Source of the DNA: Armatimonadota bacterium
GTDB taxonomy: Bacteria > Armatimonadota > Fimbriimonadia > Fimbriimonadales > Fimbriimonadaceae
Reading direction: 5' to 3'
NCBI GenBank assembly: GCA_020438215.1
Contig: JAGQUX010000009.1
Location: 1 to 64,000 of the forward strand
Length of the DNA: 64,000 nucleotides
Each line of letters begins with the position of its first letter. Position 1 is the stretch's first letter. The notes below the pieces were generated by a model. That model did no database searches. It was not told where the DNA came from and saw nothing but the letters and a program-made list of their open reading frames with translations. This document shows positions 30,560-34,255 of this stretch, one piece after another. Both the position numbers and the translations under genes were made by a program.

Positions 30560-31291
30560 CTAACTCAAAGCCTTTTTCGCGATCTTTTCCAATTCTTTCT
30601 CAGCGAGCCGCTCCACTCCATCCCGAGTGAGCAAAACCACCGAAGGAAGCCGTCGTTGGAACCCACCCGTCGCGGAATCCAAAGACGATGCGATATCCAG
30701 CATCACCAGCGCATCCAGCAGCACATCATCGCGCTTGCGCTTGTTCCACGGCCCTTTGGTGCGGCTCAAATATTCAAACACACCTCGTATCCGCTCAGAG
30801 CCTGAACCAGCTGTCGCGTAATCCATCCCTGGGAAGCGTGCTCCGGCGGCATCAAAGAAATGCACGCTGAACTCTTCATCCTTGGGGTCATAGACCGCCG
30901 CAATCGGGAGGAAAATGCCTCCGTTCATCGCCGCTTCCATATTCCCGGCGAGAGCCTTGCTGATCTCCATCAGCTTGCCCTCCGTCGAAATCTGGAATTG
31001 ATTCAGCCGCTCGTAATACTTGAAAGCGTGCTTGAGATAGCGGCACACTTCAATGGAGCGGGCGTACGCCCCGCTGATCGCCACAACCGTTTGGTCGTCA
31101 AGAACCTCAATCTTCTCCGCTTCTTCGTACATGATGAGGTTGCCCATTGTGGCGCGCCGGTCGGCGAGGATCACAATGCCATCTTTATAGCGGAGAGCCA
31201 GAACAGTTGTCCCGTGAACAACCTGTTCATCATCGTGATGAGGGCTGGATTTGAAGTCAACCAGCTCAGAAAACTGCCTTGCCATGACCAA
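30560..31291 (-). CDS. prcB: Proteasome beta subunit
   Basis: This 243-residue 20S proteasome beta subunit has a 27-residue propeptide ending VVHG before the catalytic Thr28 (TTVLALRYKDG). The mature enzyme has the catalytic partners Asp in LADRRAT and Lys60, equivalent to Lys33. It forms the proteolytic ring. The TTG start at 31291 is 5 bases from GGAG in the upstream UBact gene; ATG at 31285 is an alternative. No alpha subunit or ring ATPase is in the window. It follows UBact and the Dop/PafA gene in one operon. Confidence 0.93.
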   Translation of the reverse strand: MVMARQFSELVDFKSSPHHDDEQVVHGTTVLALRYKDGIVILADRRATMGNLIMYEEAEKIEVLDDQTVVAISGAYARSIEVCRYLKHAFKYYERLNQFQISTEGKLMEISKALAGNMEAAMNGGIFLPIAAVYDPKDEEFSVHFFDAAGARFPGMDYATAGSGSERIRGVFEYLSRTKGPWNKRKRDDVLLDALVMLDIASSLDSATGGFQRRLPSVVLLTRDGVERLAEKELEKIAKKALS

Positions 31292-31477
31292 TTATTCTCC
31301 CGAGCGCTGGCGGTACTTCTTCGCCTGGTCGGGGTCAACCTTTTTCATCCGTTTCAGAAGCTCGTTTGGCGCACTGGGGCGATCAACATCGGGCTTGGAT
31401 GGCCCAGAATCATCACCTAGCTTGCGTTGCGGCTCGGCTTCACGGCGTCGGACGGGTCTCTCGGCGGAAAAAATCAT
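31292..31477 (-). CDS. Ubiquitin-like protein tag UBact (Pup-like)
   Basis: This 61-residue, highly charged and probably disordered protein contains GPSKPDV, the conserved ELLKRMKKVDPDQAKKYRQR segment and a C-terminal Ser-Gly-Glu, the pattern of UBact, the Pup-like modifier of several diderm phyla. The terminal Glu means it could be ligated to target lysines without prior deamidation. The ATG overlaps the dop stop (ATGA) and prcB follows directly. Context and C-terminus make this a confident call despite the short length. Confidence 0.9.
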   Translation of the reverse strand: MIFSAERPVRRREAEPQRKLGDDSGPSKPDVDRPSAPNELLKRMKKVDPDQAKKYRQRSGE

Positions 31478-32952
31478 GCTTGCTCCTTGATGCACTGACA
31501 AAACTCTGCAAATGATTCTACGCGTCTTAGCCCCTCGTCGTACCGGATTTCTGGTCGCAATTTGATTTCTTCGGTGGTTTGTTGGTTCAAATCGGGTCGC
31601 ACAACCAGAGAAGTCCAGCTTGCCGTGACCAGATGCTCTTTCCATTTGCTCACTGCAAGCGATCGTACTAACGCTCGCGAATCTAAGTCATCTCCCCTCA
31701 GACAGGCTTCGACTTGTGCATCGCTGGGAAGGGCATCAACAAAACCACCCTCTGCCAATCCGGCAAAGAGTTGATCTTCTCCCGAAACCTGGTGGTATTC
31801 CAAGTCGAGTGACTGCATGTGCGGATCATGCCAACTCAGCCCCTCGGATTCCCGGAACTGATCCAGTAGCCAATACTTTGCCGCCCAGTCCACTTTGGAC
31901 TTGAACCACTCAAAGTTACTCTTGCGAGCTTCCAAAAGCTGTTGGCATTCACTCAAATGCTCACGAGATTCTTCATCCAAATCAAGCTCACTTCCCGCAT
32001 CCAGATACGATTCCGCCACCGATCTCGCCGTTACGAGCCCTTCCTCAGTTTCAATCCGCCCATCTCCCTCCAAATCTCGCGATGTCAACTTGAACGAACG
32101 GACAGGATCGGAGACACGCCATAGAGGTGCTTTGCCCTCAAGCAATAGCCGGATGGCAAGCTGAACAAGAAACAGCCTTCGCGCAGTGCAACTCGGCATC
32201 AAATTCGCGTCGCAAGTGATGACGTGCATCCTCCGCCATTGCTGCGAATCAGAGTGGGGCTCATCACGAGTGTTGAAGATCGGGCGACGAGAAAGCGTCT
32301 CCAAATTGACCGCTTCCTCGAAGAAATCAGCCCTCTGAGAAAGCTGAAATCTCACTGGCCCTCCGGATTCACTCCCCACCTTGCCGGCTCCAGTCAAGAA
32401 TTGTCGGGCAATCAGCATCGGAGTGATCGCCTGGATCAACTCATCAATAGGAATGTCTCGGGGCACCAGAAAGTTATCATGAGTGCCATAACTTGCACCA
32501 GAGTAGTCGGTGTTGTTCTTGTAAACGGCAACCTCACGACCCGTTTCTGCCGCATACGCTTCCGCCGCCCGGCAGACCACTGTTTGCCCCGCATAGTCAT
32601 GCAGAGCCGCTTGATTCGGGCTGAAACACTCCGGCGTTGAGTATTCGGGGTGCCCGTGATCGTTATAGAACCTCGCCCCATTGGGCAGAACCCAATCCGA
32701 CCTTTCATCTTCGGCAGATGTCCTCTGGCGCCCGCGATCGTACTCGGCATCGCGACGATCATAGGCAAGCTGCGAAACCTGGAAGCCCCGCATATCCGAA
32801 CGCGGACTTTCATACCTGTAATCCCAACCAGAATAGCCTTCGTCCGGATAACTCCGAACGAAGGCTATTGCATCGTCTGCCTGATTTTTAACTGTCCGAC
32901 CCTCAACTGTAAAACCGTATTCGGTTTCCGTTCCGATGAGGATCGGAATCAT
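31474..32952 (-). CDS. Pup/UBact ligase or deamidase (Dop/PafA family)
   Basis: This 492-residue enzyme of the carboxylate-amine ligase fold attaches or removes the UBact tag. It shows the ATP-binding start ILIGTETEYGF, NGARFYNDHGHPEYSTPE, YKNNTDYSGASYGTHDNFL and NTRDEPHSDSQQWRRMHVI. An insertion before NGARFY (about 50-85) and the DHxHPEYS form lean towards Dop, but since the tag ends in Glu a ligase role is needed somewhere; only one family member is present here. The ATG at 32952 begins the conserved domain, 4 bases after a lipoprotein gene. Confidence 0.9.
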   Translation of the reverse strand: MIPILIGTETEYGFTVEGRTVKNQADDAIAFVRSYPDEGYSGWDYRYESPRSDMRGFQVSQLAYDRRDAEYDRGRQRTSAEDERSDWVLPNGARFYNDHGHPEYSTPECFSPNQAALHDYAGQTVVCRAAEAYAAETGREVAVYKNNTDYSGASYGTHDNFLVPRDIPIDELIQAITPMLIARQFLTGAGKVGSESGGPVRFQLSQRADFFEEAVNLETLSRRPIFNTRDEPHSDSQQWRRMHVITCDANLMPSCTARRLFLVQLAIRLLLEGKAPLWRVSDPVRSFKLTSRDLEGDGRIETEEGLVTARSVAESYLDAGSELDLDEESREHLSECQQLLEARKSNFEWFKSKVDWAAKYWLLDQFRESEGLSWHDPHMQSLDLEYHQVSGEDQLFAGLAEGGFVDALPSDAQVEACLRGDDLDSRALVRSLAVSKWKEHLVTASWTSLVVRPDLNQQTTEEIKLRPEIRYDEGLRRVESFAEFCQCIKEQA

Positions 32953-32956
32953 CACA

Positions 32957-34255
32957 TTATCGGTAGACCGCGAAGGAGCCGCTGGACGGGAATGGGAATC
33001 CTGTCGGCACGGTGGAGATGGTGAAGTCACCATCTTTTGGTACGCCACCAACCATTGTGAAGTTGTTCAAAGTACCAACGGCTTTATTGTTTTCGGTGCG
33101 GTTGTCTAGCTGATCGACTGACCAGAGTTCAACTGTGCCGCTGTTACCAGAGTAGGTTGCTCGGCCGAACCAGACTGCTGTCGGCGCGGAGAGCGGGCCG
33201 TTCATAGCCACAACCATGTGTTGACCGGAAGGATTCGTCGTCGGGAAGATCACCATGGTGAAATCGCCTGCGGCGGTCACTCGGCTGGTGAGCGGGAACC
33301 AAGACCCTTGAAGGGCGGTCACGCGTGCACCGGATGCCGGTGGTGCGCTCGGATCGTCTTCCAGCACTGTCCAGGAACCTGGCGAGTTGATAAACGAACC
33401 CGGGTTATTTGGATCTGGAAGCGGAATACCATTGTTGATGGTGCCGCTATCGATGAAGAAGCTGCTAATGATGTCGAGTGAACCGTCGGTTCCGCGACCG
33501 TTTGCAATACCGTAAGCATCGCCGGATACAACCAGTTCATTTGCCGAAGAAGCATTTGCCATAGTCGGTCGGTCTGCAGTTGCAAGTGCGGAAAGATTGA
33601 TTGTCACCAAATCGCTAAGCGATGCTGGGATTGGGCCAGCAACATCAATTGAGTTTTCGGTATCAAAAATCGCTTGATTGAACTCAGGAAGGTTCGTCGT
33701 CGTGTTGAAGAACAACGAAGCATCGCTGAGATAAATCGGCAATGACACCTGACGACCAGGAACAAGCGGAACGATAACCGGCTGAGTTGGGAGAGCGAAA
33801 GTGCCTTCCCAATCCAAAGTGATCGCACCAACATTATCTTCGGTTCGAAGATTCTTGACTGTGGCCGCAAAGTCGGTGAAGATATCTGGAGATGAACCTT
33901 CTGACCATTGGAATGTGTTGACAGTAAAGCCATCGAGCTTGACGTCAAAGCCATCCAAACCAGTTGGGAGATCAGACGGAATTTGGGTTACCGGAGGAAT
34001 GCGCAAATTGACATAGTCCAATTTCGCATAGGTTGATCCAATACCGCGACGCGCTTGACCAGAAAGGAACAAGACACGGATATCTGTCAATGTTGAAGGC
34101 AGGTTAACACTGGGGACTTCCCGAGTCACACCAGTTGTACCGGTAGTGCCACCGGCTGTCGAACCTGATCCTGAAGTTGTCGTAATTCCACCGTTACCGC
34201 CGGCACATCCGACGACCACGGCACCAGCTACAAATGCTATCCACCAATTCCTCAA
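32957..34255 (-). CDS. Lipoprotein of unknown function upstream of dop/UBact/prcB
   Basis: This 432-residue protein has a lipoprotein signal peptide (RNWWIAFVAGAVVVGC, Cys17), a Gly/Thr/Ser linker (about 20-45) and a beta-rich body with no motif I recognise. It would be anchored on the periplasmic face of a membrane or exposed on the surface. Its stop is only 4 bases before the dop-family ATG, so the two are probably co-transcribed, although the products would lie in different compartments. Confidence 0.75.
   Translation of the reverse strand: MRNWWIAFVAGAVVVGCAGGNGGITTTSGSGSTAGGTTGTTGVTREVPSVNLPSTLTDIRVLFLSGQARRGIGSTYAKLDYVNLRIPPVTQIPSDLPTGLDGFDVKLDGFTVNTFQWSEGSSPDIFTDFAATVKNLRTEDNVGAITLDWEGTFALPTQPVIVPLVPGRQVSLPIYLSDASLFFNTTTNLPEFNQAIFDTENSIDVAGPIPASLSDLVTINLSALATADRPTMANASSANELVVSGDAYGIANGRGTDGSLDIISSFFIDSGTINNGIPLPDPNNPGSFINSPGSWTVLEDDPSAPPASGARVTALQGSWFPLTSRVTAAGDFTMVIFPTTNPSGQHMVVAMNGPLSAPTAVWFGRATYSGNSGTVELWSVDQLDNRTENNKAVGTLNNFTMVGGVPKDGDFTISTVPTGFPFPSSGSFAVYR

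Follow-up and report, generated by a model that had tools for sequence, protein, structure and literature searches.

Three genes of a UBact-proteasome system lie side by side in the window, by which the whole stretch of 64,000 nucleotides that was analysed is meant. They are read from the minus strand in the order dop, UBact, prcB, and a lipoprotein-like gene lies upstream of dop.

32957-34255, minus strand: lipoprotein-like gene; about 33 loci of the family to which the window belongs have a homologue immediately upstream of dop
31474-32952, minus strand: dop (PF03136 423 bits; Dop profile TIGR03688 354 bits versus PafA profile TIGR03686 246 bits; Dop-loop, catalytic residues and AlphaFold model)
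31292-31477, minus strand: UBact tag of 61 aa (NF033388 77.1 bits, PF20513 81.4 bits; C-terminal Ser-Gly-Glu)
30560-31285, minus strand: prcB, 20S proteasome beta subunit with propeptide (TIGR03690 129 bits, PF00227 79.5 bits; active-site residues)

The gene calls and coordinates that the preliminary description gave for dop, UBact and prcB are correct. The coupling of the three genes in that order also stands, as the dop stop and the UBact start overlap in a 4-base ATGA and the gap between the UBact stop and the prcB ATG is 6 bases. Alternative start codons are possible for dop (GTG at 32955) and for prcB (TTG at 31291). The tag does end in Ser-Gly-Glu as described; its C-terminus is RQRSGE with GAA as the last codon, and it exceeds the curated cut-offs of both tag models (35 bits for NF033388 and 27.8 bits for PF20513). 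The predicted role of the tag is covalent attachment to lysines. In the PrcB sequence Thr1, Asp17 and Lys33 are present after a removable propeptide. The lipoprotein-like gene ends 1-2 bases before dop, and no Pfam family matched it. Both plsX and glyS likewise remain close to the dop cluster, so the link between the lipoprotein gene and dop may be mere synteny; the gene is probably a conserved neighbour rather than an established component of the UBact system.

The enzyme encoded in the window is a Dop. A Dop-like insertion and a DHxHPEYS motif had been pointed out in it, and both are present: the insertion is a Dop-loop with a Trp equivalent to W47 and the sequence DMRGF (DxRGF), and the motif reads DHGHPEYS. 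The residues E8, E10, Y92, D94, E99, H155, R227 and H241, in the numbering defined for A. cellulolyticus Dop, are all identical in the window enzyme. In A. cellulolyticus Dop, R227 contacts the catalytic phosphate (PMC8599861). A search of PDB sequences gave 1e-75 for Dop versus 2e-46 for PafA, and Dop structures are also the best match to the AlphaFold model (mean pLDDT 91), in which the alpha-loop is without a helix, as in Dop. The TIGR03688 score is below the equivalog cut-off of 492 bits, which was set for Pup enzymes. Since this model describes the Pup enzyme, the window enzyme is called Dop-type and not a Pup depupylase; it is predicted to act as a UBact remover or deamidase.

The preliminary description also spoke of a single Dop/PafA enzyme, of the beta subunit only, and of no alpha subunit or ATPase gene. 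These statements hold for the window but not for the genome (G000), which comprises 2.64 Mb in 119 contigs, is 99.4% complete and carries the window on contig C119. The genome search that had been proposed found all three kinds of partner: a second PF03136 (Dop/PafA) homologue at C53:72668-74035 (1.2e-127 in the genome-wide family search), prcA at C24:27438-27893 and an ARC/Mpa-type ATPase at C64:67236-68735. The protein from C24 belongs to the bacterial alpha subunits (TIGR03691 2e-15, under the model cut-off), and its nearest PDB sequences are M. tuberculosis PrcA. A beta subunit with Thr1, Asp17 and Lys33 and an alpha subunit, as expected for a bacterial 20S core, are thus encoded in the same genome, and prcA on C24 rules out a proteasome made of beta subunits only. 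In the ATPase the OB domains PF17758 and PF16450 and the AAA domain PF00004 score above cut-off, and TIGR03689 scores below it (456 versus 504.75 bits). One UBact gene is found in the genome, and the Pup tag family PF05639 has no match there. All six UBact-proteasome components are therefore in the window's genome.

The suggestion that one enzyme both ligates and removes the tag beside a beta-only proteasome falls because pafA, prcA and the ATPase are present in the same genome, and the alternative offered with it, a PafA partner elsewhere, is borne out by the PafA-type gene on C53. It had been stated in advance that pafA and prcA elsewhere would take away the novelty of the locus, and this is what was found. 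A tempting but false claim is thereby removed.

The C53 enzyme is of the PafA type and is a putative UBact ligase. It has no Dop-loop, it has a VGSHxEYATAEC motif and a C-terminal DW...DPF, and it keeps the catalytic Asp together with every other active-site residue checked. Comparison of loci and the tree both make it an orthologue of the pafA found in the operons of other families. Its profile scores are nearly equal (305.7 bits for PafA versus 295.4 bits for Dop), and the former lies below the TIGR03686 equivalog cut-off of 551.3 bits, in a model that describes the Pup ligase. For L171, a close homologue of the C53 enzyme, a fold search gave about equal matches to Dop and PafA structures, and the alpha-loop, for which a helix would be expected in a PafA, is not predicted to be helical, at modest confidence (pLDDT about 66-73). 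UBact occurs in 150 of the 251 genomes of the phylum, many of the genomes compared being drafts. A Dop/PafA homologue accompanies it in all 150, and comparison of two lists gave at least two homologues in 145; the five genomes without a second one are mostly fragmented assemblies. This co-occurrence and the orthology to operon pafA rule out that the C53 enzyme is an unrelated member of the family. Two or three Dop/PafA homologues each were also found in G005, G006 and G081, which have no UBact match; G005 additionally has no ARC-like ATPase and a single proteasome-family match.

The C53 enzyme differs from C. glutamicum PafA at the substrate-docking positions. Docking in the latter is the task of R137, R207 and R218, and in the R207A variant pupylation of FabD is abolished while that of free lysine is largely intact (PMC10465538). 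The corresponding residues in the C53 enzyme are Met, Lys and His. An alignment of 172 enzymes shows all three arginines in each Pup-PafA, in the UBact-PafAs from Latescibacterota, Poribacteria, Nitrospinota and Verrucomicrobiota and also in the Dops, except for three Armatimonadota Dops without R218. The triad is lost and the loop lengthened in all Armatimonadota PafAs examined, the C53 PafA (L001:1414-2889) included. In these enzymes and in the Bipolaricaulota-labelled L175, NTRDEP is replaced by NPK or NPR (NPKWEH in the C53 enzyme), R137 and R218 have been lost, and the segment before the motif is longer. R137 is the least certain column of the alignment because other arginines lie nearby in the lengthened loop, and most of the insertion is at very low confidence in the L171 model. 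This phylum-wide loss of the PafA docking arginines looks new and may have functional meaning. How a ligase without them chooses its lysines is a question that can now be tested.

A phylogeny of the window enzyme against Dop and PafA had been suggested as a means of settling the roles. It succeeds for the C53 enzyme, which groups as the orthologue of operon pafA, but gives no significant pattern for the split between Dop and PafA. In the trees, whose reference sequences came from PDB alignments as printed and lack their ends, the Dop and PafA of UBact systems fall together, as do those of Pup systems, a grouping by tag and not by function (SH-aLRT 96 for the quick tree and 87/89 under the mixture model). 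Such a grouping would be expected if Dop and PafA had arisen twice, once by duplication in the Pup lineage and once in the UBact lineage; labour would then have been divided twice, and the labels of the Pup enzymes would not be strictly transferable. This history is unlikely, though it fares better than the other alternatives considered below. Holding PafA as one clade costs 9.4 log-likelihood units and is not rejected (p-AU 0.327). In both tag systems the Dop-loop is confined to Dops, and the motifs GSHxEYATxEC and DW...DPF are confined to PafAs. Because these loops and motifs are common to both, one duplication is favoured, perhaps blurred by adaptation of both enzymes to the same tag.

Taken together, a complete UBact-proteasome system of ordinary plan is very probably present, with three of its six genes in the window and their partners dispersed over the genome; the enzymatic roles are assigned by homology. 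By this assignment the C53 PafA-type enzyme would join the side chain of the C-terminal Glu of UBact to target lysines. The C64 ATPase would recognise the tagged proteins, unfold them and feed them to a 20S core composed of PrcB from the window and PrcA from C24. The window Dop would remove UBact, to which deamidation of the tag would be added in sister species whose tags end in Gln.

Gene content rules out a genome with a single, bifunctional enzyme. It could still be argued that the window enzyme both attaches and removes UBact while the C53 homologue does something else, and the atypical features of the latter, namely the lost docking arginines, the change of NTRDEP to NPKWEH and the ambiguous profile scores, would fit such a view. 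It is nevertheless very improbable, for the C53 enzyme keeps its catalytic residues, is orthologous to the pafA of the UBact operons in other families, and accompanies UBact in all well-assembled genomes that have the tag. The window enzyme, in turn, has the Dop-loop and the Dop alpha-loop, which are tied to removal and not to ligation (PMC7947786; PMC8599861).

The dispersal of the partner genes is explained by the history of the operon. In other families the basic order is arc-dop-UBact-prcB-prcA-pafA, with the ATPase sometimes elsewhere (20 cluster regions). Within the window's taxonomic order, one family retains dop-UBact-prcB-prcA with or without pafA, and in another UBact has only dop beside it or stands by itself. 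In the window's family dop-UBact-prcB is all that stays together and pafA is found alone elsewhere (16 of 16 loci examined), and nearly all UBact-bearing near relatives have prcA and one ARC-type ATPase. The ancestral operon arc-dop-UBact-prcB-prcA-pafA was dispersed in the window's family, leaving dop-UBact-prcB, and it is for this reason that the partner genes seemed to be missing from the window. Others who annotate genomes of this family could be misled by the same dispersal.

Other arrangements were seen as well. In G222, UBact is without a nearby dop or prcB (loci L108 and L130) and pafA adjoins dop on another contig, the operon having broken up there by another route. G166 and G168, two reduced genomes of 1.5 Mb in the window's family, have neither UBact nor either of the two Dop/PafA enzymes. 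Some Poribacteria genomes have the UBact system and others the Pup system (loci L180, L182-L185 and L189 versus L191, L195, L201, L209, L219 and L231). The least probable reading is that the cluster in the window is a decaying remnant of a system that the family is losing and whose parts no longer cooperate; the broken operon, the two small genomes just named, the long branch of the window Dop and the change of its HEN motif to HDN speak for it, but every component has an intact open frame and its catalytic residues, and the family as a whole keeps both the dop-UBact-prcB cluster and the pafA, prcA and ARC genes that lie apart from it.

A second unusual feature of the complete, dispersed system concerns its ATPase. 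The GQYL motif is reported to be required in mycobacteria (PMC12288473, PMC8755798). The C64 ATPase ends in ARKTII and so carries no C-terminal motif of the GQYL/HbYX type. None of the UBact-linked ATPases examined, L005:1396-3051 included, has a penultimate Tyr or Phe. Two aliphatic terminal residues are found in 15 of 19 and 17 of 17 ATPases in two partly overlapping Armatimonadota sets and in 12 of 12 from named UBact-bearing loci, versus a [YF]x ending in 38 of 41 from loci without a UBact gene. The lysine of the alpha subunit that is expected to bind the ATPase C-terminus is apparently kept. This tyrosine-less, mostly aliphatic tail looks new too, and may bear on function; no paper describing such a C-terminus or the altered ligase in UBact systems was found in the open-access literature. 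It is conceivable, at somewhat less than even chances, that the UBact systems of Armatimonadota follow a Pup-like cycle in which two contact surfaces have been rebuilt: the ligase would pick its substrates without the arginine triad, and the ATPase, as in UBact systems at large, would dock to the 20S core and open it by a terminal, mostly aliphatic residue pair in place of the tyrosine motif. The opening of the 20S gate without the tyrosine motif can now be tested, and the altered ligase surface and the ATPase tail are the parts of the system that are worth the attention of specialists.

The occurrence of a Glu-ended tag beside a Dop, which had been regarded as odd, turns out to be common. Of 103 distinct tags from the phylum, 57 have Gln as the last residue and all of the other 46 have Glu. 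The codons involved, GAA/GAG and CAA/CAG, are one base apart, and the ending has switched at least 24 times on the Dop+PrcB tree, at least 19 switches being forced by the starred branches. The genus of the window itself has both endings, Glu in G000 and G058 and Gln in G026, G109, G138, G154 and G170. Glu-ended Pups are likewise common according to a review, in which depupylation is then the main task of Dop (PMC12288473). The frequent switching and the role of Dop as tag remover explain why the two are found together. That a Glu-ended tag frees Dop from constraint was rejected: the median log ratio of Dop to prcB tip branches is -0.03 in Glu lineages versus 0.12 in Gln lineages (Mann-Whitney p 0.009, kinship ignored). 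Measured against prcB, Dop shows no faster evolution in lineages with a Glu-ended tag and so is not decaying there. What purpose Dop serves when the tag already ends in Glu is a further question that has become testable, and the switches among close relatives are a natural experiment on it.

The UBact-proteasome system was reportedly described by Lehmann et al. in 2017 (doi 10.1016/j.bbrc.2017.01.037). The present system is like it in its tag family, its Dop and PafA homologues, its proteasome subunits and its ATPase, and other families of the phylum have the same operon order. It is unlike it in that the genes are dispersed in the window's family, only dop-UBact-prcB being together. With the Pup-proteasome systems of Actinomycetota and Nitrospirota it shares the enzyme families, the gene order arc-dop-tag-prcB-prcA-pafA and the occurrence of both Glu- and Gln-ended tags. 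However, the tag belongs to another family, the ATPase of Pup systems ends in GQYL or GHYL whereas that of UBact systems has an aliphatic end, and Pup PafA keeps the docking arginines that Armatimonadota PafA is without. Pupylation in C. glutamicum (PafA structures 4b0t/4bjr) is similar in that Dop and PafA are both kept and the catalytic residues of PafA are the same. The 20S core is absent from C. glutamicum (PMC12288473), whereas both the alpha and the beta subunit are encoded in the window's genome.
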